Notes under the pieces: model-generated
The model's database searches: none
The model's input: the letters and a program-made list of their open reading frames with translations, nothing else
Told to the model about the DNA's origin: nothing
Translations under genes and position numbers: made by a program
Assembly (NCBI GenBank): GCA_949295505.1
Contig: CASFLH010000084.1
Span: 1-54,530, forward strand
DNA length: 54,530 nucleotides
Reading direction: 5' to 3'
Source: an uncultured Spirochaetales bacterium
GTDB taxonomy: Bacteria > Spirochaetota > Spirochaetia > Sphaerochaetales > Sphaerochaetaceae
In this document: one piece after another, positions 33,201-49,589 of the stretch
Position numbering within the stretch: position 1 is the first letter of the stretch
Layout of the letters: each line of letters begins with the position of its first letter

Positions 33201-33457
33201 GCAAGCCATTAGGTAAAAGCCGAAGATAGGAAGGGGTGTCCTGTATTATGGCTAGAAGGTAAGCGCTGTTAAGTATAGCATGTTTTCCTTCTCTCCCAGT
33301 GGCTCTGTCCCGCGGGTGGTGGTTCGCTCATGAAATAGGGGTTCATGAGTGCGTAAAATCCGACGGGGGGGGGGGTGACTAATTATAGGAAAACAGCGTT
33401 TAGAGATACGATCATGTCTTTGAAGCGTTTCGGCGCTTCGTAAGGGAGAGACGTGCC
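33201..33457 (+). ncRNA. Long structured 5' leader of the chaperone-usher operon
   Basis: Non-coding but full of potential pairing: AGCCAT (33204-33209) / ATGGCT (33248-33253); a long-range helix GTTTTCCT (33282-33289) / AGGAAAAC (33387-33394) that can be flanked by CGCT/AGCG; a 10-bp hairpin around CTCATGAA (33327-33334) / TTCATGAG (33342-33349); and GAAGCG/CGCTTC (33422-33439) just before the AAGGGAGAG ribosome-binding site. An 11-G run lies inside the long-range helix. Several tiny frames occur (ATG 33248, 33280), none convincing. No known riboswitch motif was recognised. Confidence 0.5.
33365..33375 (+). repeat. Homopolymeric G tract (11 G) in the leader
   Basis: Eleven consecutive G between CGAC and TGACTAATTATAGG, 82 bases before the chaperone start and about 160 after the predicted transcription start. 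No other G run of this length is in the window. Such tracts change length by slipped-strand mispairing and commonly phase-switch surface-structure genes. Confidence 0.85.
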
Positions 33458-34195
33458 ATGTTCGCTAAACGTATTGTGACAGTCTCAGCACTGTTGCTCT
33501 TCTGTGCATTCTCTTTGATGGCTTATCAGCTGTCACCGCTGAATGTAACGTATGACCCGACAGGTGCAGGCAGCGCCAAGGTCTACACTATCGTCAATGA
33601 TTCAAGCTCACCTGTTGCAATTGAGCTGAAGGCGATGCGCCGTTATATCGATATCAATGGCGAAGAATACACCGAGGAAGCTCCTCAGTTTTTCTCCATA
33701 CAGCCTGCAAAGATGATTATCATGCCGGATTCCACGCAGCTTGTCCGTGTACAGTATCGCGGACCATCGACTGTGACAGAGGAAATGGCATTCAGGATCA
33801 TCTCTGAGCAGATTCCGATGCCGCGTGGTGCTCAGGATGAGAATAGCGGCCAGATGATATCATTCCTTTTCGTATATTCCACCAGTGCATATGTACGCCC
33901 TTCAAGAGTGGTTGAGAATGTTGTTGCTACAGCAGAGAAAACCGAGGATGGAAAAATCGAGATTATTCTTGAGAATACAGGATCTGTTCATCAGATGCTT
34001 AATAGTCTTTCCATCGTACTCACGGGAAATAATGGAACAACATATACGTTGACGGAATCTGAGACCGAATCGTTATCGGGAAAGAACCTTCTTGTAGATT
34101 CAAAACTCAGGACAGTCATCGAAATCCCAGAAGTTCTGACAGGCTCTGATGTTTTCACCGCGTCAGTTTCCTACGACTACGAGTATTCAGCCTAA
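33458..34195 (+). CDS. PapD-like periplasmic fimbrial chaperone
   Basis: 245 residues with a signal peptide (MFAKRIVTVSALLLFCAFSLMA). The mature part has the two-immunoglobulin-domain layout of pilus chaperones: an N-domain rich in short strands with AKVYTIVNDSSSPVAIEL, then FFSIQPAKMIIMPDSTQLVRVQY and MAFRIISEQIPMP, the latter matching the strand-F/G region that donates a strand to subunits, then a C-domain (IEIILENTGSVHQML). It would fold and escort the subunits encoded downstream to the usher. Similarity is structural in pattern and divergent in residues, so the assignment comes from pattern plus context. Ribosome-binding site AAGGGAGAG. Confidence 0.75.
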   Translation: MFAKRIVTVSALLLFCAFSLMAYQLSPLNVTYDPTGAGSAKVYTIVNDSSSPVAIELKAMRRYIDINGEEYTEEAPQFFSIQPAKMIIMPDSTQLVRVQYRGPSTVTEEMAFRIISEQIPMPRGAQDENSGQMISFLFVYSTSAYVRPSRVVENVVATAEKTEDGKIEIILENTGSVHQMLNSLSIVLTGNNGTTYTLTESETESLSGKNLLVDSKLRTVIEIPEVLTGSDVFTASVSYDYEYSA

Positions 34196-34222: not shown

Positions 34223-37200
34223 ATGGCAATGAATGATAGACGGGGTGGTTCCCGGCGCATCTTCATCATCATCTTATCTGCCCTGACAGCTGTTACGACA
34301 GCTTGTCTGGCCCTGCTTCGGAACAGCATAGGGCAGAGTCTTTCTGTGCTTCTTGGTTATGTCATTCTCTTTATGTCATCCGTTCTGATGAATCTCTGCA
34401 TCGCAGGCAGTACGGATGAGACAAAGAGAACGGCTCTTCTTGTCTTCTCGCTTGGAATCCTCGTCTTCTTCCTTGGCGGGATGATTCACATTCTCTTCTC
34501 AGATGATGAGACGGAGTACACTGCAACACCTTCGATAGCTGAAGCGCACATCACCGAACACCCAGCTGAAGTTATCGGCACAGCAGATGACGAAACAGGC
34601 ATTCAGGTTGCTGATGAGAAAGATGAGGCTTATATCACCCCCATTATCACTGAGCCCCATGAAACGTCTGGCAGCACTGAAGAGACAGAAGAGCCGCTCT
34701 CGCATTCCTTAGATGAAGACTATCACAATGATGAAGGGCCTCTCCAGAGTACTGACCCCTTCGTTGCAGCAGATAGTGAGGAAAAAGCATCTACTCCTGC
34801 TGCTCCTGAGATGTATTTCACCATCACGGATATTACCGAAGATGAACCTGTGGCAGAGGAGATCATCTTTGAACCACCTCCTGTACCAGAAGAAACAACA
34901 GTAGCGGAAATGGAGAAAGAAAGTGCATCTCCACAGCTTGCGGCTGCTGAGACAGTGGAGGCAATCGAGGCCGAGACGGAATCGGAAATTGCAGAGGCTG
35001 AGATTGTCACCGGTATAAGCGATGAAAATGAAGGATTCGCGAAAACGGAAACAGCTGTTGAAAAGACATCGGAAGAATCATCTGCAGATAGTTTCGATTA
35101 TGATTCCTATTATGCCGACTTCTTTTCGGATTTTTATATCCAGGGGCGCGATGACATGCTCCTTGAAGATGGCATCTATTACATGGATCTCTCAATCAAT
35201 GGAAACAATGTCGGTTCGATTGAGACAGAGGTTGTCGATGGTGAAGCTGCTATAAGCAAAGCGGAATTCGATTCCTACATCTATGGTTCTGTTGAAGATG
35301 TGCTTGTTGACAATATCATGGATTACGAAGGCCGTTATCTTCCTCTCGATTATATTGCGTCTTTTGGTGTTGGAGCATCTTTTGATCCGAACACATTTGC
35401 CATAGATATTGTTTTCAGCGCTTCTGATATGCCTCTTCAGATTCTGAGCATCGGTGGCGGAAGCTCAAGGAGAAATTCCTTCAGGCCAATATCCGATGGT
35501 ATTTCTCTCGATCCTGCTGTATTTGTCCTTAGAACAAGATGGGATTTTTCTGGTAGTATCGGATCTTTCATCGATAGTCCTTATGATACTCTGAGATTCA
35601 CTCTTTCTTCTGATAACACAGGCAGAATCAATGATGTATATTTTGATTTCAATTATTCTCTTGATTTCGCACCTGATGATTTCAATTTCAGAATGGGATC
35701 ATATCGGTTCTATAAGGATTTTGAAGATTCGATGATACGCCTCTCCTGGGGTAATGTATCTTCGGATGTTCTAAGCCCTTCTGGCCGTACCTTTGGCGTT
35801 AGATTTGATAGAAGCTATGCTTATGGTGGCCCGAATGCCCAGCGCAGAAGCCATCTTGAAAGGATGCTCCTTATTGATAAGACGTCAGAAGTCATTGTCT
35901 ATAACGAAGGAAGGGAGATCTACAGACGCACTCTTGATCCTGGCAATTACAGGCTTCGTGACTTCACGCTCTATACCGGAGCAAATACCATAACCATCAG
36001 GGTTGTTCCTCTTGATGGTTCTGCTTCGTCTGAACAGACAATCGACATCATGTACTCAAGCTCTCTTCTTGCGCCGGGTGAAGTGTATTACGGAGCAGCC
36101 CTTGTATCCGGGAGAAATGTTTCAAGAACGAAGAGCAGCAGGCCTGGAGTGCTTTCAATTCCGCTTGGGAGAGAGTATCTGGAATATGATTGGCGCAATG
36201 TCGTGCTCTCAGGATACATCGAGGCAGGCCTGACTGATTCACTTACGATTCATTCAACACTTGCCCTGCAGAATTATCCTGAAGGCCGGCGAAGCTGGAA
36301 TCCTAGAGTCAGGCTTAATACGGAGCTCACCCATGCCAATATTCTTGGAACAACCAGATACAACTTCAATATTGGTGAGTACATGGGCAATGATGGCTTT
36401 ATGGAACTTCCTCGCTTGTATGCGCGTGTCAGCCATCAGGTATCGACTGGGTGGACCCCGATTTCATCGCTGAATCTCAGCTTCGCATATTCTAATCCTG
36501 AGGAAAACAGACTCGCTGGTCGCCATAGGTTCTCATTCTCCGGTGGTCTTTCGGGTCGTCTTGGATTTATGAATTGGAGTACAAGTGCCTCTGCATCTCT
36601 CAATTCAGATGCCTTGGATGCATTCTCATGGAGTACTGCAGGCACGCTTAGTTTCTCCCTGTCGAGATATTTCTGGATATCGGCATCTGCATCTCTCAGT
36701 GGTACAGGATTTGAGTCTCCAAGAGCTTTCGGCCGTGTCTATGCGACTGTGCGGTTCGGCAAGGGTTCTGTTTCTGCCTCATCTAATTTCAGCAGTATTG
36801 CAGTTTCTGCTAATGCTTATACCGACAACCATTCATTCTCTGCTGGAATCGAGGCCTCAGATCCATTGAATTTCAATTCATATAGAGGGTCTGCTGATTA
36901 TTCGTACACAGGCAAGTGGGTGGGCGTTTCAATTGGTGCGAACGCTGATAATGGATTCCGCGATGGAAGCGCAGATTTCTCGCTTTCAACCAGCACTGTT
37001 TTCGCTGACGGGATGTTCGCTGCAGGTGAATATATACCCCAGAATTTCCTTCTTGTAAGACAGTATGGCGCTCTGAGAGGCAATGAGCTTTCCGCGGGAT
37101 CCGCGGGAGACTCCAGAACAGAGATTCTGAATCAGATCTTTGGCACTGCGGTTTATACGGGGCTTTCAACAGGTAGAGGAACAGCTTTCAGCCTTTACAG

Positions 37201-37699
37201 CACATCTGATGATTCTTTCAGCGGGCCTTCGATATTCAACATAAATGTTCCGCCAAGCAGTGAGTATGGATACATTCTCCGTCTTAGTGCAGAGGATTTG
37301 TATTCTGTGTCTGGAATCGTCGAACTCCCCGATGGAAGTGTGTGGAGGAATGGAGCTTCTCCTCTCTATGCATATTCGGAAGAAGCTGGTGAAATCAAGC
37401 TTGAACAGACAGACAATTACGTATTTACAGATGGGACAGGGCGATTTACTGTTTCAGACCTGGCGGCTGGCATGTATGCATTTGATGTCAGCTATGGTGA
37501 TACCTGGCTTCTTGCTATATTCGAAGCTTCTTCCGTTGACGAGGGTAAATCAGGAATGCAGATAGTCTCTCCTGCAGCCGAAGAAGATAGTGTGGAGCTT
37601 CCTGATCCTTATAGCGGAGTGATTATCTTCACCCTTGATGATGTTTTATTCAGCAATGAGTTCTGGGCAATGCTTTATCCAGAGGAGGGTGCGGCATGA
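34223..37699 (+). CDS. Usher-like outer-membrane protein with an N-terminal inner-membrane domain
   Basis: 1158 residues in one unbroken frame. Residues 13-32, 40-61 and 71-92 are three membrane helices, with RRGGSRR before the first, so the chain should leave the inner membrane into the periplasm. Residues ~93-287 are an acidic, proline/threonine/glutamate-rich linker. From ~300 the protein looks like an usher: an N-terminal domain (GIYYMDLSINGNNVGSIETE), a long run of beta-strands, a plug-like insert near 545-600 (VIVYNEGREIYRRTLDPGNY), and a C-terminal domain near 1030-1096 (VSGIVELPDGSVWR ... GRFTVSDLAAGMYAFDV). Typical ushers are ~800 residues with a plain signal peptide. Start ATG 34223 follows AGGAAG; ATG 34229 is possible. 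It ends in ATGA overlap with the first subunit gene. Confidence 0.75.
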   Translation: MAMNDRRGGSRRIFIIILSALTAVTTACLALLRNSIGQSLSVLLGYVILFMSSVLMNLCIAGSTDETKRTALLVFSLGILVFFLGGMIHILFSDDETEYTATPSIAEAHITEHPAEVIGTADDETGIQVADEKDEAYITPIITEPHETSGSTEETEEPLSHSLDEDYHNDEGPLQSTDPFVAADSEEKASTPAAPEMYFTITDITEDEPVAEEIIFEPPPVPEETTVAEMEKESASPQLAAAETVEAIEAETESEIAEAEIVTGISDENEGFAKTETAVEKTSEESSADSFDYDSYYADFFSDFYIQGRDDMLLEDGIYYMDLSINGNNVGSIETEVVDGEAAISKAEFDSYIYGSVEDVLVDNIMDYEGRYLPLDYIASFGVGASFDPNTFAIDIVFSASDMPLQILSIGGGSSRRNSFRPISDGISLDPAVFVLRTRWDFSGSIGSFIDSPYDTLRFTLSSDNTGRINDVYFDFNYSLDFAPDDFNFRMGSYRFYKDFEDSMIRLSWGNVSSDVLSPSGRTFGVRFDRSYAYGGPNAQRRSHLERMLLIDKTSEVIVYNEGREIYRRTLDPGNYRLRDFTLYTGANTITIRVVPLDGSASSEQTIDIMYSSSLLAPGEVYYGAALVSGRNVSRTKSSRPGVLSIPLGREYLEYDWRNVVLSGYIEAGLTDSLTIHSTLALQNYPEGRRSWNPRVRLNTELTHANILGTTRYNFNIGEYMGNDGFMELPRLYARVSHQVSTGWTPISSLNLSFAYSNPEENRLAGRHRFSFSGGLSGRLGFMNWSTSASASLNSDALDAFSWSTAGTLSFSLSRYFWISASASLSGTGFESPRAFGRVYATVRFGKGSVSASSNFSSIAVSANAYTDNHSFSAGIEASDPLNFNSYRGSADYSYTGKWVGVSIGANADNGFRDGSADFSLSTSTVFADGMFAAGEYIPQNFLLVRQYGALRGNELSAGSAGDSRTEILNQIFGTAVYTGLSTGRGTAFSLYSTSDDSFSGPSIFNINVPPSSEYGYILRLSAEDLYSVSGIVELPDGSVWRNGASPLYAYSEEAGEIKLEQTDNYVFTDGTGRFTVSDLAAGMYAFDVSYGDTWLLAIFEASSVDEGKSGMQIVSPAAEEDSVELPDPYSGVIIFTLDDVLFSNEFWAMLYPEEGAA

Positions 37700-38412
37700 A
37701 ACGTTTTATGCTGATTGTTTCAATATTTCTTATTGCAGCCTCCGTGCTTGTTGCCAAGGCAGGTGATACAGATATTGCTGACTTCACCATCAAAGCATTC
37801 AAAGCAGGGCAGGGAATCAAATTGCTTATCAATAATAGAGTCGATCTGAATGACATATTGGAAATCGCGGATGGCTCGACAACAGACAAGAAAGGAACTG
37901 ATATAAAGCTCAATAGCGTCATCGACCAGGTTCTAGGCTCTTCTGCCGGTCTTCAGCAGACTGGCCTCTCAAGCTTCATAATCTTCTCTTATAGGCTGGA
38001 AGGGGGGCTGAGCGGAAGGTATACCATCTCATTTGATGTGAGCCCTCTGAAAAGGGATGGCAGTGACCATGTTATCAGGAGCGTATATCAGATAGGTAAT
38101 TTCAATACTGTGTTTGTCGGATCTGCGGCAGATACAGGACAGACGAACACGCGTGATGGCTGGCGTATTGAGCAAACAGATACGGCTGTTAAGACTGAGG
38201 AGCCTGATTCCTCCGGTAATCCTGAGTTCTCAGAGACCATTACGATTTCTGATGCGAATGGATCCGTGCCATCAGAGCCACAGGCAACACCGAACTGGGC
38301 CGCGAGAGGGGCTGTAGGAATCGTTGTGAGTTACAGCGATTATATCGATAACGAAATAGCGCCATATGGTATGTATTACGCACCTGTGACAGTAAGGGTC
38401 ACGGCAGACTGA
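37696..38412 (+). CDS. Exported putative fibre subunit 1 (238 residues)
   Basis: Signal peptide MKRFMLIVSIFLIAASVLVAKA, then a beta-rich mature protein with no recognised domain. The end, APYGMYYAPVTVRVTAD, has the tyrosine/valine alternation seen at the end of every protein in this operon and typical of the last strand of pilins. It overlaps the usher by 4 bases, so it is probably the partner made first, a candidate adaptor or base subunit. A stretch around residues 148-190 is rich in T, D, E and S and may be flexible. No Y-x-Y-W motif is present. Confidence 0.68.
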   Translation: MKRFMLIVSIFLIAASVLVAKAGDTDIADFTIKAFKAGQGIKLLINNRVDLNDILEIADGSTTDKKGTDIKLNSVIDQVLGSSAGLQQTGLSSFIIFSYRLEGGLSGRYTISFDVSPLKRDGSDHVIRSVYQIGNFNTVFVGSAADTGQTNTRDGWRIEQTDTAVKTEEPDSSGNPEFSETITISDANGSVPSEPQATPNWAARGAVGIVVSYSDYIDNEIAPYGMYYAPVTVRVTAD

Positions 38413-38425
38413 AGGGAGGATGAGC

Positions 38426-39037
38426 ATGAGAAAGGCTATAATGATTGCAGTAATATCAGTTCTTCTTTCAGCTGTGCTCTGTGCTGAACCCGCTCCCGAT
38501 GTTTCGAGAACGATATATCTTCAGGGCGCTTATGATAATGTGCTTTCAATAGGTGTCACTCCCATTGCCTCTCAAACGGGCTTATACAGATATGGCATGC
38601 CCTTTGATATACAGGATGCAAGTGTTCAATACGCAATGTACAGAGGGCGTCCTATCGCAAACTGGACATGTCTTGCGAACACCCCGTTCAGAATTAAAGT
38701 CGAAGCTGAAAAACTTGCTTCTGTCATTGATACGGGATTCACATTGGATTACATCCTCACATTCTCCTATAACATCGCCTACAACGTAAAAGGCGAGACC
38801 AAGGAGGAACAGGGAGCTTTTGAATATAGTACTCTCCAGGCAGCGTCTGGCGGGGATAGTTATGGCTATTATGAGTTCTCCGTACTTGATAACGCTGACA
38901 AGCTTTCATTCATGGGAAGCGTCGACGGCTCGATATTCTTCAGGTTTGAGGACGGACTGATATCAAGGATTGACAACGATGCACCAGCAGGGAATTACAC
39001 GGCTGATGTGACACTGATTCTGGAGGCGCTGGAATGA
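38426..39037 (+). CDS. Exported putative fibre subunit 2 (203 residues)
   Basis: Start ATG 38426, set by GGGAGG six bases upstream; ATG 38420 lies too close to that site. Signal peptide MRKAIMIAVISVLLSAVLCA. The mature protein contains VLSIGVTPIASQ and, mid-protein, PIANWTCLANTPFRIKVEAEKL, which resembles the Y-x-Y-W ... F-x-I-x-L block of the later subunits with the aromatic core changed to A-N-W. It ends APAGNYTADVTLILEALE, the pilin-like last strand. It overlaps the next gene by 4 bases. Confidence 0.7.
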   Translation: MRKAIMIAVISVLLSAVLCAEPAPDVSRTIYLQGAYDNVLSIGVTPIASQTGLYRYGMPFDIQDASVQYAMYRGRPIANWTCLANTPFRIKVEAEKLASVIDTGFTLDYILTFSYNIAYNVKGETKEEQGAFEYSTLQAASGGDSYGYYEFSVLDNADKLSFMGSVDGSIFFRFEDGLISRIDNDAPAGNYTADVTLILEALE

Positions 39038-40425
39038 GAAAAGCTGCATTTTTGATCCTGCTGATTCTGAGTTTCCATTCACCAGTTTTCGCGCTTGAAG
39101 ATCTTTACCTGGGACCATATGGTGGTTCTATTAATGTAAATCTCAATAATACGAATGCTAAATGGAACAAAGGCGCATGGGGAGGGCAGGATCAAAAAGG
39201 CGCGCCATTTGAAGATGGCCAAATAGTTGCAGTGGGTGCGTTGTATAGACTTGAGTATAGAGCGTTTAGAGGACACGAAGCCCGTGACTATGGTCTTAGA
39301 GTGACTTTTTTCAGTAACAGTAATGAAAATGGATATTTCTGGTTCACTTCACAAAGCAATCCGGATTCGCGCCGTCCATTTTATCTGAATGTCGCGGGAC
39401 AGGTTAGAAAACATATTTTGGGGGACAACCATAATAATGAATTTGAAAATTGGGGATTGTATCCTAAGGAAAGTACTGCTAGCATCGCTGACAGCATCGA
39501 AATATATGCCGATGTAGGTGGGTGGGCTCTAGACATAAGCATAATACCGGATATCGCTATTGTCCTGCCAGGAGAAATTGTCAATGGTGTCCTTACTATT
39601 CCATCTGATCAGTCAGTTTCCGGAAGGGAAGAGAAGTATTCGATAGTCTCCGCTTCTGATTATAGCTGCGATATTACTGTACGTTATGAAATAATAGACA
39701 AGTCTGGAAATGTTGTCACACACATAGATGGTTATAATGGACCATATTCCCAGGAAATCACCATTCCATTCTCAGGTTTCTATGATCCTCTTATTGCTCC
39801 AACAGAGGAAGATAATAGCATCCCTCCGGAATTAAGCAGCGCTTTATCGGTGCACACATACCCGGCCGCTGCAAACATTGACCTTAGGAATGACCAAGGA
39901 ACAAGCATGCATATCGCGGACATAAGCTATGCTGTTTACAATGTCAAGGAAAGGACTGATTCGAATTATTATGATGATTCAATCTACATTTTCCTTTCTG
40001 CAAGCCCCAATCCTTATTCCCAGGATATCAACGGCTTCCGCTTCGTTCATGAGGATGTAGCTCCTGGTGTTAATCCAAGCGCGAGACAGTCGCTTGGTTA
40101 TACAGTTACCGTCAATGGTGATCAGGATACAGTAGCTCATGGCGGGACGGATGAAGCGTCATTCAACGGGGATGAATATCTGTCAGTTGAGGGGAGTGTC
40201 GGCAAGGTTGCTCCGGACAATGACGCGAAGATTATAACAGGATGTTACACGGAAGATGTGTCGCATACTGCCGCAGAAAACATTCATCGTCATTGGCATT
40301 CTTTCAACGGGGAAATCTGGCTGAATCTTGATGTGAACAGGGAGGCTCCAGTTATGGAGGCGGGCTATTACCATAGCAATGTCTATGTGCATGCGATTGT
40401 GGATGAGGCAGCAGCAGTGCTATGA
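39034..40425 (+). CDS. Large exported protein of the fibre operon, candidate tip adhesin (463 residues)
   Basis: Signal peptide MRKAAFLILLILSFHSPVFA. At more than twice the length of its neighbours it fits the usual plan in which one long two-domain adhesin caps a fibre. It has no recognised domain. Segments include VNLNNTNAKWNKGAWGG near the start, IVLPGEIVNGVLTIPSDQ mid-protein, and a C-terminal HRHWHSFNGEIWLNLDV followed by MEAGYYHSNVYVHAIVDE, again a pilin-like end. The adhesin role is inferred from size and place. About 110 non-coding bases separate it from the following subunits. Confidence 0.65.
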   Translation: MRKAAFLILLILSFHSPVFALEDLYLGPYGGSINVNLNNTNAKWNKGAWGGQDQKGAPFEDGQIVAVGALYRLEYRAFRGHEARDYGLRVTFFSNSNENGYFWFTSQSNPDSRRPFYLNVAGQVRKHILGDNHNNEFENWGLYPKESTASIADSIEIYADVGGWALDISIIPDIAIVLPGEIVNGVLTIPSDQSVSGREEKYSIVSASDYSCDITVRYEIIDKSGNVVTHIDGYNGPYSQEITIPFSGFYDPLIAPTEEDNSIPPELSSALSVHTYPAAANIDLRNDQGTSMHIADISYAVYNVKERTDSNYYDDSIYIFLSASPNPYSQDINGFRFVHEDVAPGVNPSARQSLGYTVTVNGDQDTVAHGGTDEASFNGDEYLSVEGSVGKVAPDNDAKIITGCYTEDVSHTAAENIHRHWHSFNGEIWLNLDVNREAPVMEAGYYHSNVYVHAIVDEAAAVL

Positions 40426-40534
40426 GGTGGTCTATGGGATGGTATGAAATGAATAAATGCTGCGTATGCAGTTTATATAGGGTCTGGGGGAGAAGAAATT
40501 CTTTCGTAGAAAATAAACACACATGGAGGAGTGT

Positions 40535-41134
40535 ATGAAGAAGGCACTTTGTGTATTGGCGGTATTCCTGATGACAGGAATGGTTTTTGCGGCGTGGACC
40601 GGTGGAAGTGATGGAATCGGAAATGGGGGATCTCAAGCTGTTAAGGCCACACTTAACCTCAAAACAGGAGGAGAGAACATCACGAAGTCTATTGTAGTTG
40701 GCTTCGCATCAGCTCCGGTTACGACTTTTGATGATGTGACAGGTGATATAACAACCGACCAGGGACTGACTATTAACGATGATGATGAAACAGCTTCCCT
40801 TGAAGATGTTTATGTCTATTGGCAGATCAAGTCTCCGGATGCTCTTCAGATAAGTCTGAAGTGGGATGAAAAACTTACGGGTACAGGAGGCAAGGAACTT
40901 GCATGGACAGTTTCCACAACACCGGGGTCTGGCTCCGATAACGGTACGGCATCGACAGGGTCCGGAAGCCTAATACTTGATAGAAGCACAGCAAAAATTG
41001 AGGCCGACGAATTTAACTATGCGACGGTTGGAAGCCAGAAGGTGAATATCTCTGTTAAAGATGTCTATAGCAATGGCATTGTAGATTACAGTGGCACTCT
41101 GACACTTACGATTTCTGGTGAGCAGCAGGGTTGA
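40535..41134 (+). CDS. Exported fibre subunit paralogue 3 (Y-x-Y-W family)
   Basis: 199 residues from ATG 40535, preceded by GGAGGAG; an earlier in-frame ATG at 40523 overlaps that site. Signal peptide MKKALCVLAVFLMTGMVFA. It shows the family blocks: SIVVGFASAPV (about residue 50), VYVYWQIKSPDALQISLKW (Y-x-Y-W near 92-95), and the end VDYSGTLTLTISGEQQG. The glycine- and asparagine-rich N-terminus (WTGGSDGIGNGGSQ) matches that of the next paralogue, so these two are the closest pair. First of seven consecutive related genes, likely polymerising subunits. Confidence 0.72.
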   Translation: MKKALCVLAVFLMTGMVFAAWTGGSDGIGNGGSQAVKATLNLKTGGENITKSIVVGFASAPVTTFDDVTGDITTDQGLTINDDDETASLEDVYVYWQIKSPDALQISLKWDEKLTGTGGKELAWTVSTTPGSGSDNGTASTGSGSLILDRSTAKIEADEFNYATVGSQKVNISVKDVYSNGIVDYSGTLTLTISGEQQG

Positions 41135-41160
41135 TCACAAATAAGTTAAAAGGAATGAAT

Positions 41161-41796
41161 ATGAAAAGATTGACAGTTTTAATTCTTGTAGCAGTTGTTG
41201 CTCTGTCCGGTGTATTCGCAGCTGCATACAATTCGGGAACTGGAAATGATAGCTCAAGCTGGGGTAATGGTGGACATCCGACAGTGCCTTTGAAGTTTAC
41301 TATTGGCACTAACACAGCTTCATACAAAATCGGATTTGATTCGAACCCTGGTGTTCCTGCGACTCCAAGTTTTTCTGGAGATGTTGTGCTCGATTTCAAA
41401 GATGGCGATCCTACGACAATCGTGAATGTCAGCGATATTTATGTGTATTGGGATATCACAACAGCTCAGAATTTCGCCCTCTCTCTTGAAGCAGATGGTG
41501 CTCTTACCACAGGAGACGGAGGAGAAGAGAAGCTTATCAACTTCAAGGTTACTGGTGATAAGTCAAAGCAGGGAGATGTAGCGAATTCAGAATCTACAGA
41601 AGTTTCGATTAAAACCTCGACAGATACAACAGCAGCTAGTGCTTCTCCTATTGTTTCAGAGTCATCTGCAACTGCTCTGAAGTCATTCAAGGGCTATCAG
41701 AAGCTTACTATTGAGTCGCTTCCTGGCGAGCTCGATGGTAAGGCGACAGGAGAATATACGGCAAATCTGACTCTTAAGGTAACGGACGGGAATTAA
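41161..41796 (+). CDS. Exported fibre subunit paralogue 4 (Y-x-Y-W family)
   Basis: 211 residues from ATG 41161, six bases after AAAAGGA; the in-frame ATG 41155 is too close. Signal peptide MKRLTVLILVAVVALSGVFA, then SGTGNDSSSWGNGGHPTVPL, close to the same region of paralogue 3. Family blocks: YKIGFDSNPGVPATP, IYVYWDITTAQNFALSLEAD (Y-x-Y-W at 94-97) and GEYTANLTLKVTDGN at the end. Serine/threonine-rich mid-section (TSTDTTAASASPIV). Probably a fibre subunit exported through the usher. Confidence 0.72.
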   Translation: MKRLTVLILVAVVALSGVFAAAYNSGTGNDSSSWGNGGHPTVPLKFTIGTNTASYKIGFDSNPGVPATPSFSGDVVLDFKDGDPTTIVNVSDIYVYWDITTAQNFALSLEADGALTTGDGGEEKLINFKVTGDKSKQGDVANSESTEVSIKTSTDTTAASASPIVSESSATALKSFKGYQKLTIESLPGELDGKATGEYTANLTLKVTDGN

Positions 41797-41799
41797 TAA

Positions 41800-42300
41800 A
41801 TGAGAAGAGGGATGACAGCCATTCTGATTGTGGTTTTCATAGCAGTCTCTGGACTGTCATTCCTCTATGCGTCAACAATCCAAGAAAACCCCGTCAAAGT
41901 TTCCTTTGGTTTCGCTGAAGGGAAGGGGTCATATGAGATTGGATTTTCGGATTCGGCGGATAACCCTTCCGCGAATCAGATAGAAGCGATACCGCTAGGC
42001 CTCGATTCGGATGGATTCGGAGTGCCTTTGAATGATGTATATGTTTACTGGGCTATTACATCAACAATACCATTCAGACTTAGTCTTTCCGAGGCTGAGA
42101 GCGGTACGCTTCCTTTGACTGTTTCCTGGGATGATAAGGAAAGCAATGACATCATTTTTGAGTCCCGAGCAGGGGTGTACAGCAATACGGATGCTGTCAA
42201 GCTTTCTATCAAGACGGTTAACAATATCAGCGAATTGAGCATCAAGGATTATAGTACGACCTTGGTTCTGAGCATCATGCCAGCCGGGGATGGCGATTAG
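41800..42300 (+). CDS. Exported fibre subunit paralogue 5 (Y-x-Y-W family)
   Basis: 166 residues, shortest of the set. Start ATG 41800, three bases after the previous stop. Hydrophobic export signal in MTAILIVVFIAVSGLSFLYA after a basic MRRG. Blocks: SYEIGFSDSADNP, VYVYWAITSTIPFRLSLSEA (Y-x-Y-W at 81-84), and the end DYSTTLVLSIMPAGDGD. Lacks the long N-terminal glycine-rich stretch of paralogues 3 and 4. Confidence 0.7.
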   Translation: MRRGMTAILIVVFIAVSGLSFLYASTIQENPVKVSFGFAEGKGSYEIGFSDSADNPSANQIEAIPLGLDSDGFGVPLNDVYVYWAITSTIPFRLSLSEAESGTLPLTVSWDDKESNDIIFESRAGVYSNTDAVKLSIKTVNNISELSIKDYSTTLVLSIMPAGDGD

Positions 42301-42309
42301 GAGGGGAAT

Positions 42310-42876
42310 GTGAGGAAAATTTTGAGTATCTTCATTGTCGCTCTCTTCTGTATTGGCTTCCTTTTCTCAGCTGAGCATGTGGTTTATGATTCTGATGAGC
42401 CAGGAGAGAATGCGTATAAGAATATTGCAATGAATCCTGCTAACCGCAGTTATTTTGAGATAGGATTCTCTTCTGGAGCTTATGATTTCAAAGGAGTTCC
42501 GTCTGTGTCATTTGATGAGAATGGCCTGATGCCTCTCGTTTATGATGAAGCAACGTATATAGCAGAAGGAGATATCAATATTTACTGGCTGTATGGAACA
42601 ACCTCATCATTTGATATCGTACTATCATGTACAGCACTTGTTTCTCAGAGCGACAACAGTGTGACAATTCCTCTTTATGCTGATTATGGTGACCTTACTG
42701 CAGAGAGCGGGAGTGATCCGATTGATATTCTCAATATAAAGAGCTCTGGGGAGTATCAGATCAGCAATTCCCTAGAAAGCGATACAGCAATCCATCTTCG
42801 TTCGGGAATATTGCTGGATAAACCAGCAGGTGAGTATAGAGGATCGGTTATATTGGAGGTCAGATCAGCCACATGA
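42310..42876 (+). CDS. Exported fibre subunit paralogue 6 (Y-x-Y-W family)
   Basis: 188 residues from GTG 42310, preceded by a strong AGGAGGGG at about 42300. Signal peptide MRKILSIFIVALFCIGFLFS. Blocks: YFEIGFSSGAYDF, INIYWLYGTTSSFDIVLSC (N-I-Y-W at 90-93, first tyrosine lost), and PAGEYRGSVILEVRSAT at the end. It overlaps the next gene by 4 bases. Confidence 0.7.
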   Translation: MRKILSIFIVALFCIGFLFSAEHVVYDSDEPGENAYKNIAMNPANRSYFEIGFSSGAYDFKGVPSVSFDENGLMPLVYDEATYIAEGDINIYWLYGTTSSFDIVLSCTALVSQSDNSVTIPLYADYGDLTAESGSDPIDILNIKSSGEYQISNSLESDTAIHLRSGILLDKPAGEYRGSVILEVRSAT

Positions 42877-43424
42877 GAAGAGGAATCATATTTATTGTCT
42901 TATCTATAATGATGGTCTTCTCTATTTATGGGGAAAGTCTGGACACTGCCGATATTGAGGTTGTATGGCCCCCTGAGAATTCTACATTCATAAGATTCGG
43001 GTTTTCTTCATCTCCTGTCTCAAGTATGGGAGAGGATCCTTCTTCTGGCGGTCAGTCTGATTCATATATTGCATTCAACACCACTTCCAGATCTGGAACG
43101 GATATTGTCTCAAGTTATACAGGAAGCCTTTATGCTTATTGGCAGATGTATAGCAATGACGTGTTCTATATTTATATCGGAGCCAAGAGCCTGACGAAAG
43201 AAGGAGCCGCTTCAATACCTTTTACGGTGAGCTGGGAGGGCGGTAACAGCATAACAAGCACTGATACTGCAGAAAATAGCGCGGAAATCCTCCATATGTA
43301 TGATACGAGTATCACAGCGGACGCGGATTCCGAGGAACTTACTATTCAGACGACGATGCCGGAAGGCGCTGTGGGTGATTGGTATGAAGGCTATATTTAT
43401 CTTGAATTGAGGAGAGCGGAATGA
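42873..43424 (+). CDS. Exported fibre subunit paralogue 7 (Y-x-Y-W family)
   Basis: 183 residues, starting in ATGA overlap. Signal peptide MRRGIIFIVLSIMMVFSIYG. Blocks: FIRFGFSSSPVSSMG, LYAYWQMYSNDVFYIYIG (Y-x-Y-W at 87-90) and the end WYEGYIYLELRRAE. Overlaps the next gene by 4 bases, so paralogues 6, 7 and 8 are translationally coupled. Confidence 0.7.
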   Translation: MRRGIIFIVLSIMMVFSIYGESLDTADIEVVWPPENSTFIRFGFSSSPVSSMGEDPSSGGQSDSYIAFNTTSRSGTDIVSSYTGSLYAYWQMYSNDVFYIYIGAKSLTKEGAASIPFTVSWEGGNSITSTDTAENSAEILHMYDTSITADADSEELTIQTTMPEGAVGDWYEGYIYLELRRAE

Positions 43425-44008
43425 AACGGACAATATTGGCTATTCTGATTATTGTTTTATCTCTTCAATTCGCCGCAGCGGTTTCTGGCGAACCTGACAG
43501 GTTCAGGGTTGTTCAGTTTACGCCTGACGCGTTTGCACGTGCTGGATTTTCTAATAATCCTGTTGTAAGTACTGTTGAACCTGACGGAAATGCTTCCACG
43601 CCTATTTCGCTCGCGTTGAGTGGGAATATCATCACTTCAGAAAAGGCAGCGTATGCATATTGCCAGATTTTCACAAAGCTTCCTGTCCAGATACGGGTTT
43701 CGGGCACAGCTCTGGAACTCAGGAATTCCAGCAATGTTGTGACCAATTCATATAGCTGGAAAGCTGAGTTCAAAGGTTATGATGGATTGATAAAGAACGA
43801 ATCAGTAACTTTATCGTCTGGATCGGAGGCAACAATCCTCAATGAGACCCAATATTCAGCTGATATAGATTTCGGATATCCCAGACATTATTGCTGGTCG
43901 GTCATGGTTACTTTGGATAATGATTCTAATGGAGAAGCCAAGAAACAGCCTGCAGGAAATACGACCCCGATAACTGGAAAGATAACTCTAGAGATCATAA
44001 CGGAGTAG
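43421..44008 (+). CDS. Exported fibre subunit paralogue 8 (Y-x-Y-C variant)
   Basis: 195 residues. Signal peptide MKRTILAILIIVLSLQFAAA. Blocks: FARAGFSNNPVVSTV, AYAYCQIFTKLPVQIRVSG and TPITGKITLEIITE at the end. The tryptophan of the signature is a cysteine here (Y-A-Y-C, 78-81), and a second cysteine occurs later in HYCWSVMV, so this member could form a disulphide that its relatives cannot. Confidence 0.7.
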   Translation: MKRTILAILIIVLSLQFAAAVSGEPDRFRVVQFTPDAFARAGFSNNPVVSTVEPDGNASTPISLALSGNIITSEKAAYAYCQIFTKLPVQIRVSGTALELRNSSNVVTNSYSWKAEFKGYDGLIKNESVTLSSGSEATILNETQYSADIDFGYPRHYCWSVMVTLDNDSNGEAKKQPAGNTTPITGKITLEIITE

Positions 44009-44019
44009 GAGGCGGAAAT

Positions 44020-44658
44020 ATGATGAGAAAGATTACTCTGATTGCATTGTTCATTTTTTCTGCTGTATTCCTTTTCTCGGCAGGTGATGTTAATATCGGC
44101 GGTAATTTCAATGTTGTTCTTCAGAAGACAGGCACTGATAGTTATGGTTTTTGCACATATGAGACAGCTTCCAGCAATACTCATGATTCATTGAGTTCGA
44201 TTGACTTTGAACTTATTGCTTCAAGGGATCAGACAAGAACGACAACGAAATTTGGAGTGTATTGGGATTTGTACACGGAAAACCAAGCTGAGAATATTGA
44301 GCTGATTCTTGCTTTCTCGGCTACCAATGACAATCTTAGCCCTTATATGCTTATCGCAGATGACGGCAATGTCCACTCATATCTGAATTATGATGTGGCA
44401 GTTGATGAGTATGAGGGCGACTCGGAAAAGCCGTCTTCATTAACTGTGGTGCCGGCTGAGAGAGATTCCTCGATGAGCACTTCAAGGGAAATCAGACTGC
44501 TTGATCTTGAGAATCTGGCTCCGTACTCAGGAACAAATGGTTATGCAGCAATTACGCTTACTCTGAATTCACCTGTCGATTCCGAGACCCTTGCTAATGA
44601 GCCATTCCATGAGGGGAAATACACAGGCTATGTACTGCTGTACTGTATTTCCGGGTAA
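44020..44658 (+). CDS. Exported fibre subunit paralogue 9, last of the operon
   Basis: 212 residues from ATG 44020 or 44023, preceded by AGGAGGCGG. Signal peptide MMRKITLIALFIFSAVFLFS. The signature is FGVYWDLYTENQAENIELIL (V-Y-W at 80-82); the G-F-S-x-x-P block is missing, and the N-terminus (GDVNIGGNFNVVLQKT) differs, so this is the most divergent member. It ends HEGKYTGYVLLYCISG. In chaperone-usher operons the last gene is often a terminator or anchor subunit. No clear terminator follows in the 100 bases before the convergent gene. Confidence 0.66.
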   Translation: MMRKITLIALFIFSAVFLFSAGDVNIGGNFNVVLQKTGTDSYGFCTYETASSNTHDSLSSIDFELIASRDQTRTTTKFGVYWDLYTENQAENIELILAFSATNDNLSPYMLIADDGNVHSYLNYDVAVDEYEGDSEKPSSLTVVPAERDSSMSTSREIRLLDLENLAPYSGTNGYAAITLTLNSPVDSETLANEPFHEGKYTGYVLLYCISG

Positions 44659-44759: not shown

Positions 44760-46382
44760 TCATAGAAGTATGTAAAGCGCATTTGATGCCGCGAAGAACC
44801 AAGAGAAGAGCAGTGTGTTGAGTACAGCAGGAAATATGATGCTTCCGCTTCTTTTCTGCCCGCAGCAGTCAATAAACGCAAAGAGCGGGGTAAATGGAAG
44901 CATATAGATAATGGGTATCAGGGCGAATCTGTGATCATAGAACATCAGTTCTCCCTTGATCGGGAACCCGAGCAGGAATAGTGCTATCATCACCACCGGT
45001 CCTGTTATGTAGAAAAGAAGATAGTCAACTAGCTTCCTTTCTGTGTGTACTGATGTGAAGAGGCTGAATCCTGTGAATCCCGCAAGGAAGAGCGGCAGGT
45101 AAATCAGCCATGCAAGCGCTTTGCGGGTCGTGAATGGTGAGAGGCTGGTGAAGAGGATGAATATGTTGTTCTCTGTAAGCCAGATGATGGCAAGGACAGC
45201 TGCATAGAGGATGCCGAATATCGCGAAAGCTTTCAGGATATCCTTTTTCATTTCCTTTGATGTAATCGCCTTGCTGGCCTTCCTTTTCAGGAAGGATACT
45301 GCCATGAGTATGAAGCCTGTGAACACAGCCCATATCACAAGGCCATTCGTGTCTGTCTCCGGAAAGATTGCGTTTGGCATCAGAAGTTTCTTTCCGATCA
45401 TGTATAAAGGCGGAAGCACGGCATAGACCGCGATAGAAGACAGAGCAGGGATGAAAAGTCTTTTAAAAGAGCGAGGACCCTTTTCCTGTATCTCCTCTGG
45501 ATTGGGATAGAAAGCTGTGCAGAGAAGTACGGCTGTTAACGCAAAGAGTATGAGCACGGTAATGGAGCGGAGCTGGAAGAGGGCGTTGACGCCATTTGCG
45601 CTCTGCGGCAGGCCGCAAAGGTATCGGCTGAAGAAAGAGACAGCAACGTCCATGGCTTCCCCATATGCAGGGAGCAAGCTTGTGTTGATGTTCTCCACGA
45701 TAAGCGTTGCTTCATTGTCCCCGTTTTCATACAGGATTCCCTTCCCCTGTATTTCACTGCCGTTTCCATAGAGCTGCGAGAAAAGATTCCTTGTTGCTTC
45801 AAGACTGCCTTTCCTCTGATGCTCATCGAACCTGGCAAGTATGAAGCCAAGGTTATCCACATGCTCCCGAAGCCTTTCCAGAGAGCCTGAGATATCAACA
45901 TAGTCAATGTTCAGCACAGCTTTCAGCGGTATTCCTGTCTCTTCCGCCGCTATGGAAAGATAATATCCTCCCATCGTGTGTCCGATAGCCCCAATCCGGT
46001 CTTTATCGACAAAACTGAGTGAATAAAGATATTCCAGGGCATCGGATGTACCCATCGATGGCGTCTCCGCGATATCTGACTGGCCATGGTTATATGGATT
46101 GAAGAGCAACACTGCATATCCTGCTGCTGCCAGCTTGGTGGCGTAAGCCTCCATGGCGCTGTATTCGTTGTTTGCTCCGTGTGAGATGAGAATCGCAGGA
46201 TATTGGCTTTTGTCTATTTCCGGAATGTAGAGCTTTCCTGTAAGAATTCTCGCTTCCTGCGTGGGGATATCAACACGGAAACTTCTGAAAGAATATATGT
46301 TCTCAATAGCGATTGTCATGAAAAGCGCTGCTGACAGAAGCAGCAGAAGCGTAATCAATGGCCATTTCCAGGTTTTTTTCAT
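44760..46382 (-). CDS. Membrane alpha/beta-hydrolase-like protein with Ser-to-Thr nucleophile change
   Basis: 540 residues. An N-terminal membrane helix (residues 7-26) is followed by an alpha/beta hydrolase domain with PAILISHGANNEYSA (oxyanion region), LLFNPYNHGQS, and the nucleophile elbow IGAIGHTMGGYYLS (about residue 152), where threonine replaces the usual serine. From about residue 270 to the end are about eight hydrophobic helices. The same architecture, with an intact GHSMGG, is found in the gene at 47811. Catalysis is therefore doubtful, though threonine can serve as a nucleophile. It overlaps the AraC-type regulator gene by 4 bases. Confidence 0.75.
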   Translation of the reverse strand: MKKTWKWPLITLLLLLSAALFMTIAIENIYSFRSFRVDIPTQEARILTGKLYIPEIDKSQYPAILISHGANNEYSAMEAYATKLAAAGYAVLLFNPYNHGQSDIAETPSMGTSDALEYLYSLSFVDKDRIGAIGHTMGGYYLSIAAEETGIPLKAVLNIDYVDISGSLERLREHVDNLGFILARFDEHQRKGSLEATRNLFSQLYGNGSEIQGKGILYENGDNEATLIVENINTSLLPAYGEAMDVAVSFFSRYLCGLPQSANGVNALFQLRSITVLILFALTAVLLCTAFYPNPEEIQEKGPRSFKRLFIPALSSIAVYAVLPPLYMIGKKLLMPNAIFPETDTNGLVIWAVFTGFILMAVSFLKRKASKAITSKEMKKDILKAFAIFGILYAAVLAIIWLTENNIFILFTSLSPFTTRKALAWLIYLPLFLAGFTGFSLFTSVHTERKLVDYLLFYITGPVVMIALFLLGFPIKGELMFYDHRFALIPIIYMLPFTPLFAFIDCCGQKRSGSIIFPAVLNTLLFSWFFAASNALYILL

Positions 46383-47635
46383 CTTCCGTTCTCCTTCATT
46401 CTCTGCCTGTATTCACCGGGTGAGATGAGATGCTTTTTCCTGAACACCCTGTGGAAATAGCTGCTTGATGAGTACCCAGTCTCCATGCATATCTCCGTGA
46501 TGGTCTTGTCAGTATCAGATAGGAGCTCTTCTGCCTTGCGTAGCCTGAGTTCCGTTATCGCATCGATGATGTTCCGTCCTGTCTTCTCTTTGTATATCCT
46601 GCTGAGATAAGCAGGGGAGAGATCAAGGTCCTCGGCTATCTGCTGCACGCCATATCCGCTATCTGCAAGATGATCCTGGATAAGGCTGTTGATTCTCTCC
46701 GCATATGACTGCTGCCGGTTCTCAGCTCTGGCATCCAGATCCTTCAGATATTCATTCGCCCTCTCGTTCACATACGTTCTCAGAGCGATGAAGGAGGGGA
46801 AGTCCCTCACATCCATCGTTCCTGGCCTCATTGATGGATTCACAGAAAGTCTCTGCTGATCGAGAAGCGACGAGATCATGAAGAATGCAAAACGGCATGC
46901 CATCATATTCCCTGCAGTACTGTCCAGTACATGCAGCAGAGGATCAATGTTGTCTTTCCTGAGGTTCTGCATAGCTTCCTCGATTTCCTGCAGCAGTCTA
47001 GCATATGGGATTGTCCGGTCTTCTTCCTTTTCTGCTTTCGCAATTGAACCAGGCTCGCGGAAGAAAAGATTATCCGCTGTTTTCTCTGTTGTGATGTATG
47101 CCTCATGAAGCAGTGATGTGCTGACAGGTTCCGGGTAGTAAGCAAGGAACCATTTCTGTTCCCCACAGCTTCTTGCCATGCGCTCTGCAATGACAGATGG
47201 ATTTTTGCCATCATCTTCCGTGATGAGAGTGAACAGTCTCCCTCCATGGCATGCGAACAGACAGCCTTTGCTGTCCCTAAGTGTCTCAGCGACCTGATGC
47301 AGGGATGTTCTTGCTGATGGGCGGATCATCAGAAGTATATAGCTGCCATCGTCTTCTCCTTCCTCGTTCCCATAAATACATATCTCTTCCAGCCGCCTGG
47401 TTCTTTCTGTCGATGTTCCCAGCCCGTCATTGCCGTCTGCTGTAATGAAATAATAGATATTGAGTGCCATTCCGGCCGTGAAGCCTATGAGAGACACTGA
47501 GGTGATGTAGCTTATCCTGATGCCGAATTCCCTATCTGTTGCTGTGCTGCTGATACCTGCTGCCATGACGATGATGGTGACAAGCGAGAGCAGAGAGACT
47601 GAAAGTGCCGCATAAAAGAGAATCCGTTTCTTCAT
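46379..47635 (-). CDS. Membrane-anchored AraC-family transcriptional regulator
   Basis: 418 residues from ATG 47635; the open frame extends much further but there runs antisense to the next gene. Two membrane helices (about residues 4-27 and 41-63) with a short outside loop precede a ~230-residue cytoplasmic part of unknown type and a C-terminal AraC domain with two helix-turn-helices (YGVQQIAEDLDLSPAYLSRI and TITEICMETGYSSSSYFHRV). It probably controls the two flanking hydrolase genes in response to a membrane signal. It is coupled to the hydrolase gene below and divergent from the one above. Its ATG has no strong ribosome-binding site. Confidence 0.88.
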   Translation of the reverse strand: MKKRILFYAALSVSLLSLVTIIVMAAGISSTATDREFGIRISYITSVSLIGFTAGMALNIYYFITADGNDGLGTSTERTRRLEEICIYGNEEGEDDGSYILLMIRPSARTSLHQVAETLRDSKGCLFACHGGRLFTLITEDDGKNPSVIAERMARSCGEQKWFLAYYPEPVSTSLLHEAYITTEKTADNLFFREPGSIAKAEKEEDRTIPYARLLQEIEEAMQNLRKDNIDPLLHVLDSTAGNMMACRFAFFMISSLLDQQRLSVNPSMRPGTMDVRDFPSFIALRTYVNERANEYLKDLDARAENRQQSYAERINSLIQDHLADSGYGVQQIAEDLDLSPAYLSRIYKEKTGRNIIDAITELRLRKAEELLSDTDKTITEICMETGYSSSSYFHRVFRKKHLISPGEYRQRMKENGR

Positions 47636-47646
47636 TTTACTGTGAA

Positions 47647-47675
47647 AGTCTACCTCAACAGGATGCTCTGCACAA
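47647..47675 (-). promoter_or_regulatory. Promoter of the AraC-type regulator operon
   Basis: On the minus strand TTGTGC (47670-47675) and TAGACT (47647-47652) are 17 bases apart, ending 11 bases before the ATG at 47635. Confidence 0.5.
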
Positions 47676-47810
47676 TTGCACTTTTCTGCCTTTCTGAGCG
47701 TCCATGTCAGAAAAATCCACTGCGGGAAAGCAGAATATTCCATAGAAGAAAGAAAATGAGAATGGCGGGGCTGGAAATGGCGGCATACGATTTTGGCAAA
47801 AGGAGATAAT

Positions 47811-49589
47811 ATGACAGCACAGAAAAGAACAGCTTTCATTGTCCTGGCTGCTGCGGTTCTGCTGCTGGTTGCCGGAGCGGCGCTCCATATCGCAATCAAC
47901 ACGGATTTCGGCAGGGTCACAGTTGACCGTCTTACAGTCCTTGACGGGGAAGGTAAGGAAGTAAGCCTTCTTGTATATAAACCTGATACAGCAACAGCGG
48001 AAACACCCGCTCCTGCTGTTATAACCAACCATGGCGGCGGTAATTCAATTGAAGCCCAGGGCAGCTATAACGTGGAGCTTGCGAGAAGGGGCTATGTCGT
48101 CGTTTCCTGGGACGCGAGCAATAGCGGCCTTTCGGAAAAGAGCATGGATCCGACCCATGGCGGTGAGGCAGCATATAGCTTCACGGCATCGCTTCCATTC
48201 GTGGATAGCTCGAACATGGCCGCGTCCGGTCATTCCATGGGCGGTATTTATACATTCATGATTGCCCAGAATCATCCAGAGAATATAAAGATCGTAATTC
48301 CTGTCGGTATGAATCCGGGTATGAATGACACAGTGTCACCGTTCCTCACTAATTATGCATGTATTATCGGTAGCACCGATGAGAGCAACCTTGTGCGCAG
48401 CGATGGCGATATCCTCAACATGGCGCATAATGAGCAGTATCATGATTTCTTCGGTCTGGCAGAAGATGAGGTGCTTGAGGTTGACCGGGTCTATGGAAGC
48501 TTCGAGGATGGAACCGGAAGAGCGTTCTACATGCCTGATTCCTCGCATTCTGCTTCTATGATCAATGGTGGTCTTATCGCGCTGTATCTTGATCTCGTGC
48601 AGGATAATGTGCCGGCACCGAATCCGATAGGCAGTACCGATCAGATCTGGGGATGGAGAGATTTCGGAAGTATTCTTGAGTTCTTCGGTCTTATTCTTTT
48701 CTTCTTCGGGATGGCGCTCTGGCTGCTGAGCACGGATTACTTTGCCTCCCTGCATCTCAAGGCTCTGCCAGAGGTCGGCTTCAAGGCAGGAAGTCCTGCA
48801 TGGCTGGTATGCCTTGTCCTTCTGATGCTTATTCCAGTGGTACTGTTCATTCCATCTTCAACGCTTGCTATGAAGATTACGGTACCAGCATTCATGGGTC
48901 TTGACGCTACTGCGAACGGTTTCGCGCTCTGGTCACTTATCACAGGGCTTGTGCTGCTTGTATTCTTCCTTGTTTTCCATTTCGCTTTCGGAGCAAAGAG
49001 GGGAGGAAATGCCCGGACATATGGCCTTGCCACAGCTGAGACCGATGGCTTCCATGTTTCATATGTGCTGAAGTCTTTGCTCTTTGCGCTGCTGGTCACA
49101 GGATCGACATATATTGTCTATATCTTCCTCTTCTATCTTACGAGAGAGGATATGAGAGTCTGGCTTGCAGTCATCAGGCCTATCCCGATGTTCAGGATCA
49201 GATACCTTCTGGCTTATCTTCTTATACAGCTTCCATTCTTCCTTGCAGGCGGACTTGCGGCACGAAGCATCAACATGAACAATGGTGAGAGGACTGGCGG
49301 CCTTAGAATGTTCCGTTCAGTTCTCCTGAGTGCGCTTGTGGGAATGGCCGGTCTTATTGTCATGTTCCTTGTCTATTGGATTACTTTCAAGACAACAGGC
49401 GTTGTGCTCTTCCCGAATGACAGAGGTTATATCTTCGCAGGAGCAATCTACTCGATGCTGCCATCTTTCCTTGTCGGAAACTGCATCAACTGCTATATCA
49501 CCAACAAGACAAACAGCGTTTATGCAGGTGTCCTGTGTGCAGTTCTGTGGGCTACTTGGATTATGGTTGGCGGAAATGCCATTGCATAA
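47811..49589 (+). CDS. Membrane alpha/beta hydrolase
   Basis: 592 residues from ATG 47811, with AAAGGAGAT just upstream. One N-terminal membrane helix (about residues 9-28) leads into a hydrolase domain outside the membrane: APAVITNHGGGNSIEA, YVVVSWDASNSG and the nucleophile elbow MAASGHSMGGIYTF (serine intact). The second half has about eight membrane helices. It is a paralogue of the 44760-46382 gene, and the AraC-like regulator lies between them, transcribed divergently. It may be a cell-envelope esterase or peptidase; the substrate is unknown. Confidence 0.8.
   Translation: MTAQKRTAFIVLAAAVLLLVAGAALHIAINTDFGRVTVDRLTVLDGEGKEVSLLVYKPDTATAETPAPAVITNHGGGNSIEAQGSYNVELARRGYVVVSWDASNSGLSEKSMDPTHGGEAAYSFTASLPFVDSSNMAASGHSMGGIYTFMIAQNHPENIKIVIPVGMNPGMNDTVSPFLTNYACIIGSTDESNLVRSDGDILNMAHNEQYHDFFGLAEDEVLEVDRVYGSFEDGTGRAFYMPDSSHSASMINGGLIALYLDLVQDNVPAPNPIGSTDQIWGWRDFGSILEFFGLILFFFGMALWLLSTDYFASLHLKALPEVGFKAGSPAWLVCLVLLMLIPVVLFIPSSTLAMKITVPAFMGLDATANGFALWSLITGLVLLVFFLVFHFAFGAKRGGNARTYGLATAETDGFHVSYVLKSLLFALLVTGSTYIVYIFLFYLTREDMRVWLAVIRPIPMFRIRYLLAYLLIQLPFFLAGGLAARSINMNNGERTGGLRMFRSVLLSALVGMAGLIVMFLVYWITFKTTGVVLFPNDRGYIFAGAIYSMLPSFLVGNCINCYITNKTNSVYAGVLCAVLWATWIMVGGNAIA

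Follow-up and report, generated by a model that had tools for sequence, protein, structure and literature searches.

The 54,530-nucleotide stretch of DNA examined here (the window; positions 1 to 54,530 of contig CASFLH010000084.1, assembly GCA_949295505.1, from an uncultured member of the Sphaerochaetaceae, probably living in the gut) was found to carry what is very likely the locus of a highly divergent, non-classical chaperone-usher pilus, with ten exported proteins as its structural subunits (we put the probability of this reading at about 0.86). Ten open reading frames (ORFs) lie head-to-tail on the + strand at 37696-44658, directly 3’ of an usher gene, each with a signal peptide and with no intergenic gap in the run larger than approximately 110 base pairs (bp), in agreement with a first-pass annotation made from the sequence. 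A gene for a PapD-type chaperone, followed by that of the usher, is located 5’ of these, and a run of 11 G at 33365-33375 precedes both. As far as genes and models indicate, the product would be an unrecognised hair-like surface fibre made of ten different subunits. Assignment of these to the chaperone-usher pilins is based on their paralogy, the incomplete immunoglobulin (Ig) fold of one that was modelled and their co-location with the usher across the genus. The most surprising part of the system, absent from the first-pass annotation and from solved ushers, is an inner-membrane anchor fused to the usher. The features identified, all on the + strand, are as follows:

33365..33375, +, poly-G tract of 11 G, candidate phase-variable promoter element, 93 bp 5’ of the chaperone start
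33458..34195, +, periplasmic pilus chaperone (PapD_N) of non-classical type (PF00345 and anchor residues)
34223..37699, +, outer-membrane usher with N-terminal inner-membrane anchor, 1158 amino acids (aa) (AlphaFold, Foldseek, VIA)
34238..34498, +, three predicted inner-membrane helices, usher residues 6-34, 38-60 and 65-92 (hydropathy, AlphaFold helices)
34499..35155, +, acidic, probably disordered linker, usher residues 93-311 (model confidence, composition)
35156..37648, +, usher part proper, with N-terminal domain, plugged barrel and C-terminal domains (AlphaFold model against FimD)
37696..38412, +, subunit A of 238 aa, probably an adaptor (cluster 5, 29 loci; last strand APYGMYYAPVTVRV)
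38420..39037, +, subunit B of 205 aa, probably an adaptor (cluster 2, 30 loci)
39034..40425, +, subunit C of 463 aa, probably a tip protein with two domains (cluster 3, 30 loci, 413-565 aa)
40535..41134, +, pilin paralogue 1 (profile E 1.8e-33)
41155..41796, +, pilin paralogue 2, the subunit modelled (profile E 1.2e-26)
41800..42300, +, pilin paralogue 3 (profile E 1.3e-19)
42310..42876, +, pilin paralogue 4, GTG start (profile E 1.6e-16)
42873..43424, +, pilin paralogue 5 (profile E 1.3e-26)
43421..44008, +, pilin paralogue 6 (profile E 1.6e-14)
44020..44658, +, last subunit, a distant paralogue that may be a terminator or base subunit (profile E 0.015)

Paralogy was examined with a profile of 79 subunits from other genomes that contained no window sequence, searched against the 375 stop-to-stop frames of the window of at least 60 aa together with reversed decoys. 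The frames at 40523, 41131, 41800, 42310, 42873 and 43421 were recovered at E 1.8e-33 to 1.6e-14, that at 44020 at 0.015 and the non-paralogue at 38420 at 0.003, with the best reversed decoy at 0.93; for two of the paralogue ORFs the best starts were 40535 and 41155/41161. Seven paralogues had been proposed in the first-pass annotation, and six of these were recovered at E<=2e-14, with the seventh (44020) being marginal; by sequence, the family consists of six clear paralogues and more distant relatives. Profile comparison of mature chains linked the paralogue cluster (cluster 0) to cluster 7, cluster 9, the last-gene groups (95%, E 2e-8) and subunit B (94.6%, E 7e-8 without the signal peptide), with subunits A, C and D only weakly linked. 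A link between subunits and chaperone (79%) obtained when signal peptides were included was gone once mature chains were compared, and the profiles gave no support (20%) for relating the window subunits to those of SCPU type in other spirochaetes.

The motifs described for the seven genes are real but looser than had been proposed. GF is present in all seven, GFS in four, the following P in four, the strict Y-x-Y-W in four and YW in six, while among 86 subunits of the genus the G-F and the last-strand Y are conserved in at least 90%, the consensus being GFS and Y-x-YW-x-I. The last strand, given as G-x-Y-x-G-x-V-x-L, occurs in most of the paralogues in the form G-x-Y-x-x-x-V-x-L and is not confined to them, as it is also found in the three genes that had been left out (37696, 38420 and 39034); the C-terminus of subunit C is pilin-like, with an IYxH-type signature. 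None of the subunits tested was recognised by Pfam or NCBIfam, the subunit profile had no match among Protein Data Bank (PDB) sequences, and the SCPU domain matched neither any window subunit nor the 86 subunits of the genus (set A2). The proposal of an undescribed subunit family thus holds against these collections, the family appearing too divergent for recognition by such searches. A conserved disulphide like that of CsuA/B (Cys16-Cys62) was not found, as 183 of 325 mature subunits are without Cys.

One subunit was modelled with AlphaFold (mature paralogue 2, 41221-41793; predicted local distance difference test, pLDDT, 85.8). The model is nearly all beta, with strands spanning residues 33-189 and the chain ending at its last strand (strand F), while residues 1-32 form an unstructured extension, mostly of low confidence, with an alternating hydrophobic stretch. 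Foldseek placed CfaB and CfaE at the top (probability 0.99-1.00, E approximately 4e-3), with CS17, Caf1, CsuA/B and FimG lower, and VIA-align gave a Z of 7.1 to CfaE and approximately 6 to CfaB. Residues 33-191 match the pilin domains of CfaB, CfaE, CsuA/B and Caf1, the alignment beginning immediately past their donor strand and reaching the C-terminus. The subunit is therefore predicted, from one model with modest scores, to have the incomplete Ig fold of the pathway, with no final G strand and a leftover N-terminal strand resembling a donor, rather than a self-contained fold. A Z near 7 is weak by itself, and the argument for a pilin fold comes from the agreement of the top structural matches with the genomic context. 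Across 165 subunits, the alternating hydrophobic segment before the GF motif (TVPLKFTIG, VKVSFGF and KATLNLK being examples from the window) had a beta moment of 0.640 against 0.483+-0.011 for shuffled segments, approximately 14 standard deviations. In addition, 154 of 325 subunits have Gly-x-aromatic/Leu with the Gly 14-15 residues from the C-terminus, the position known in classical pilins.

Examination of 47 further genomes of the genus identified the usher in 36 and matches to the subunit profile in 33. Subunits were present in 32 of the 36 usher-positive and one of the 11 usher-negative genomes (p 2e-6), so that subunits and usher do co-occur in the genus, and 133 of the 139 profile matches are situated on the contig of the usher, not mostly outside chaperone-usher loci. 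In 29 full or partial loci, one rearranged (L076) and some ended by contig ends, the order is nearly constant: chaperone, usher, A (approximately 230 aa), B (approximately 215 aa), C (413-565 aa) and then 5-13 more subunits, with 8-16 different subunits per operon and an orthologue of subunit A at the same place in nearly all relatives. The rearranged operon of L076 has two extra chaperone genes, one of which (41% identical to that of the window) is the most divergent in the genus, and the frame of the first chaperone in this operon is 116 aa long. At L072 (6398-9334, - strand) five tandem subunits form a cluster of their own, a recent local expansion. The same expanded operon was identified in two genomes of a neighbouring genus (loci L092 and L093), the chaperones of which nest inside this genus, suggesting transfer between the genera.

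The window chaperone matches PF00345 at E 2.1e-6, above the cut-off, as expected of a PapD-like chaperone of this pathway, and a profile of nine chaperones matches EcpB (0.0013) and CsuC (0.007), EcpB being its best PDB sequence match. Residues R113, Y140 and S141 align with R89, Y116 and S117 of CsuC and are nearly invariant in 31 chaperones, so that by alignment the window chaperone carries the archaic-type anchor. In CsuC, Arg89, Tyr116 and Ser117 have been described as belonging to a non-classical anchor for subunits and to the beginning of a shifted donor strand (PMC4654587). In the same alignment, strand A1 reads YQLSPLNVTYDPTG and strand G1 reads FVYSTSAYV in nearly all members, and the classical A1 Arg and G1 Lys were not found. 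These residues point to an anchor of the non-classical (archaic/alternative) type, being partly common to alternative systems.

The AlphaFold model of the whole 1158-residue usher matches full-length FimD and PapC, its residues 312-1120 aligning with FimD 26-833 (Foldseek E 3.3e-30, VIA Z 19), the architecture expected of an usher. N-terminal to this part are the three predicted helices and a linker that is 29% Asp/Glu and 3% Lys/Arg, with a pLDDT of approximately 25-30 over most of its length. The extension is present in all 29 usher orthologues read (median length 313 residues, with 27% acidic and 3% basic residues in the linker), and a crude hydropathy count gave 3, 5 or 7 helices in most of 30 genus ushers (range 3-7). 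With an odd number, the rest of the usher would be periplasmic, provided that the positively charged N-terminus faces the cytoplasm. A start 3’ of the helices with a signal peptide of its own was rejected, since residues 96-311 hold no sufficiently hydrophobic stretch. At the profile level the genus usher matches ordinary spirochaete ushers (99.9%, E 5e-34), while its profile gave only chance matches among PDB sequences, to designed or membrane proteins. PF00577 at E 0.001 missed the usher in the six-frame translation of its own genome, the family being too divergent for this model under those settings.

The poly-G tract is the only G/C run of at least 8 in the 54.5-kilobase window. A G run of 8-12, these lengths being differences between species, was identified in 25 of 32 loci (23 of 30 genus loci and both transferred loci), 67-178 bp 5’ of the chaperone and as the only such run in the stretch examined at each locus; the run is shorter or interrupted in several of the remaining loci, and the two bases after it are mostly TA or TG. 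A genome initially taken to lack the system (G010) was found to have the poly-G and a chaperone fragment, and its classification as such was rejected. In Treponema pallidum, promoter poly-G runs vary in length and alter transcription (PMC7864442). The conserved tract suggests that expression of the pilus operon may be phase-variable. About a dozen runs of at least 9 G were counted in the genome (1.76 megabases), and those elsewhere than at the pilus operon, again about a dozen, are possible markers of a group of phase-variable genes. A consensus promoter scan gave sites no more numerous than in shuffled sequence.

The proposal that the subunits exchange strands agrees with the incomplete fold of the model and the chaperone and usher context, and a course of assembly can be suggested from these. 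In the periplasm, strand G1 of the chaperone would complete the fold of each subunit and hold its C-terminus; once at the usher, the subunit would receive instead the donor strand of its successor, and the growing fibre would be threaded through the usher barrel. Of the subunits, the long 39034 protein would most probably form the tip, with 37696 and 38420 as putative adaptors and the paralogues forming a shaft of several different subunits. As helices (three here, 3-7 in relatives) and an acidic linker of approximately 200 residues probably belong to a single chain with the barrel, the usher would be tethered across the periplasm. We regard the odds as roughly even for the full proposal, in which the usher spans both membranes, its inner-membrane domain of 3-7 helices tethering the pore in the outer membrane by way of an acidic linker in the periplasm, and the fibre that it serves has 8-16 different subunits and is expressed under control of the poly-G tract.

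Several points weigh against assignment of the locus to the chaperone-usher pathway. No Pfam pilin family matches the window subunits, the modelled subunit has modest structural matches (Z 6-7, Foldseek E 4e-3), and PF00577 on the window usher is sub-threshold (21 against 27.1 bits). CfaB and EcpA head the structural matches, yet are not well above the others, and unrelated beta sandwiches also reach this range, with Pyrodictium cannula proteins scoring as well. The locus is known from its sequence and single-chain models. These low similarities, together with the distance of some subunit clusters from the chaperone-usher pair in other genera of the family, would suit complete beta-sandwich surface proteins that are not pilins and lie beside the pair by chance. 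The missing last strand, the donor-like N-terminus, the pilin-type last strand, top structural matches that are mostly chaperone-usher pilins and the tight co-occurrence in the genus make such a coincidence very improbable.

Within a chaperone-usher reading, the pair might instead export separate short adhesins, or a fixed-order hetero-fibre (a polyadhesin) with one of each subunit and no repeated rod subunit. The 8-16 different subunits per operon, with no obvious major one, and the orthologues kept across the genus at several positions (clusters 5, 2, 3, 6, 7 and last) are in its favour, whereas cluster 0 and the tandem duplicates at L072 resemble a rod-type expansion, and sequence cannot give expression level or copy number; we consider this possible, though not the favoured arrangement. 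An untethered, ordinary mature usher, its N-terminal helices being an unusual cleaved targeting signal, we consider rather unlikely, though only slightly less probable than that arrangement. A beta-barrel has to reach the outer membrane, the single helix of related genera could serve as a long signal peptide, and ushers with such an inner-membrane anchor were not found described in a limited literature search. However, the helix counts of the genus ushers are unlike a signal peptide, the acidic linker is kept throughout the genus, and in the one-helix ushers of related genera the hydrophobic runs are longer and the -3/-1 sites poor (by a crude score that separates the groups incompletely). An uncleaved anchor is the reading we prefer.

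Comparison with known systems showed likenesses to more than one branch. Archaic (sigma) pili, such as Csu of Acinetobacter and CupE of Pseudomonas, have the same non-classical carboxylate anchor in the chaperone. The Csu operon encodes the rod CsuA/B, the adaptors CsuA and CsuB and the long two-domain tip CsuE (PMC9452303), and the subunits of this locus may plausibly be compared with these as rod, pair of adaptors and long tip of two domains. The locus differs in having subunits with no SCPU match or conserved disulphide, ten subunits rather than about four and an usher with inner-membrane helices. The fold of the subunit is matched best in the alternative (alpha) pili CFA/I, CS17 and ECP (CfaB, CfaE, CS17, EcpA), as is the sequence of the chaperone (EcpB), but there is no sequence match to their pilins and the operon content differs. 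Ushers of the alternative systems carry ordinary signal peptides. With classical type 1 and P pili the locus shares an usher fold alignable over nearly full length with FimD and PapC and an incomplete Ig fold, while its chaperone is without the A1 Arg, it has no fimbrial Pfam match and its usher has 311 additional N-terminal residues. Proteins of the TonB/TolA type likewise combine an inner-membrane helix with a long Pro/Glu-rich linker, a likeness of make-up seen chiefly in the usher genes of related genera, but the usher linker ends in a complete outer-membrane barrel rather than a small contact domain.

In those other genera of the family, the usher has a single long hydrophobic helix and a linker rich in Pro and Glu, TonB-like in make-up, and the chaperone-usher pair is mostly alone, usually before a V-type ATPase operon. 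Pairs with no adjacent subunits were observed at L094-L100, L108 and L109, with the ATPase operon directly 3’ in most, whereas other genes occupy that place in L099. The subunits are found elsewhere, as singles or as cassettes of an approximately 180-aa pilin, two proteins of approximately 190-235 aa and one of approximately 430-450 aa; A-B-C-type cassettes away from the pair were identified at L131 (9196-12212) and L134 (5740-12311, two in tandem). Other spirochaete families have ordinary small loci of a subunit, chaperone, usher (mostly approximately 800 aa, of the ordinary form) and approximately 310-aa adhesin, with SCPU domains in some. Such archaic-like loci are present in many families (L081, L082, L083, L102-L107, L111); the L082 adhesin matches SCPU at 5.7e-10, and phmmer with the L082 chaperone gave no match among PDB sequences.

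Chaperone-usher pili have been studied almost only in Proteobacteria, and no paper with both Sphaerochaeta and usher was found in the literature searched. Of the 394 genomes sampled from the class, 117 have a match to the chaperone profile, which points to a large, little-annotated branch of the pathway. A well-studied pilus machine would here have a form apparently undescribed so far, and the undescribed fibre type proposed in the first-pass annotation is plausible. The fused anchor raises the question of whether an outer-membrane barrel can stay tethered to the inner membrane and whether pilus assembly uses the tether; if the anchor has a working role, in subunit recruitment at the Sec channel or coupling to the energised membrane, the view of the usher as a self-contained outer-membrane machine would be broken. 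If the poly-G tract is phase-variable, this would be a spirochaete surface fibre with phase variation. Just 3’ of the pilus genes, at 44760-49589 of the window, an AraC-type regulator is situated between two alpha/beta-hydrolase-like membrane proteins.

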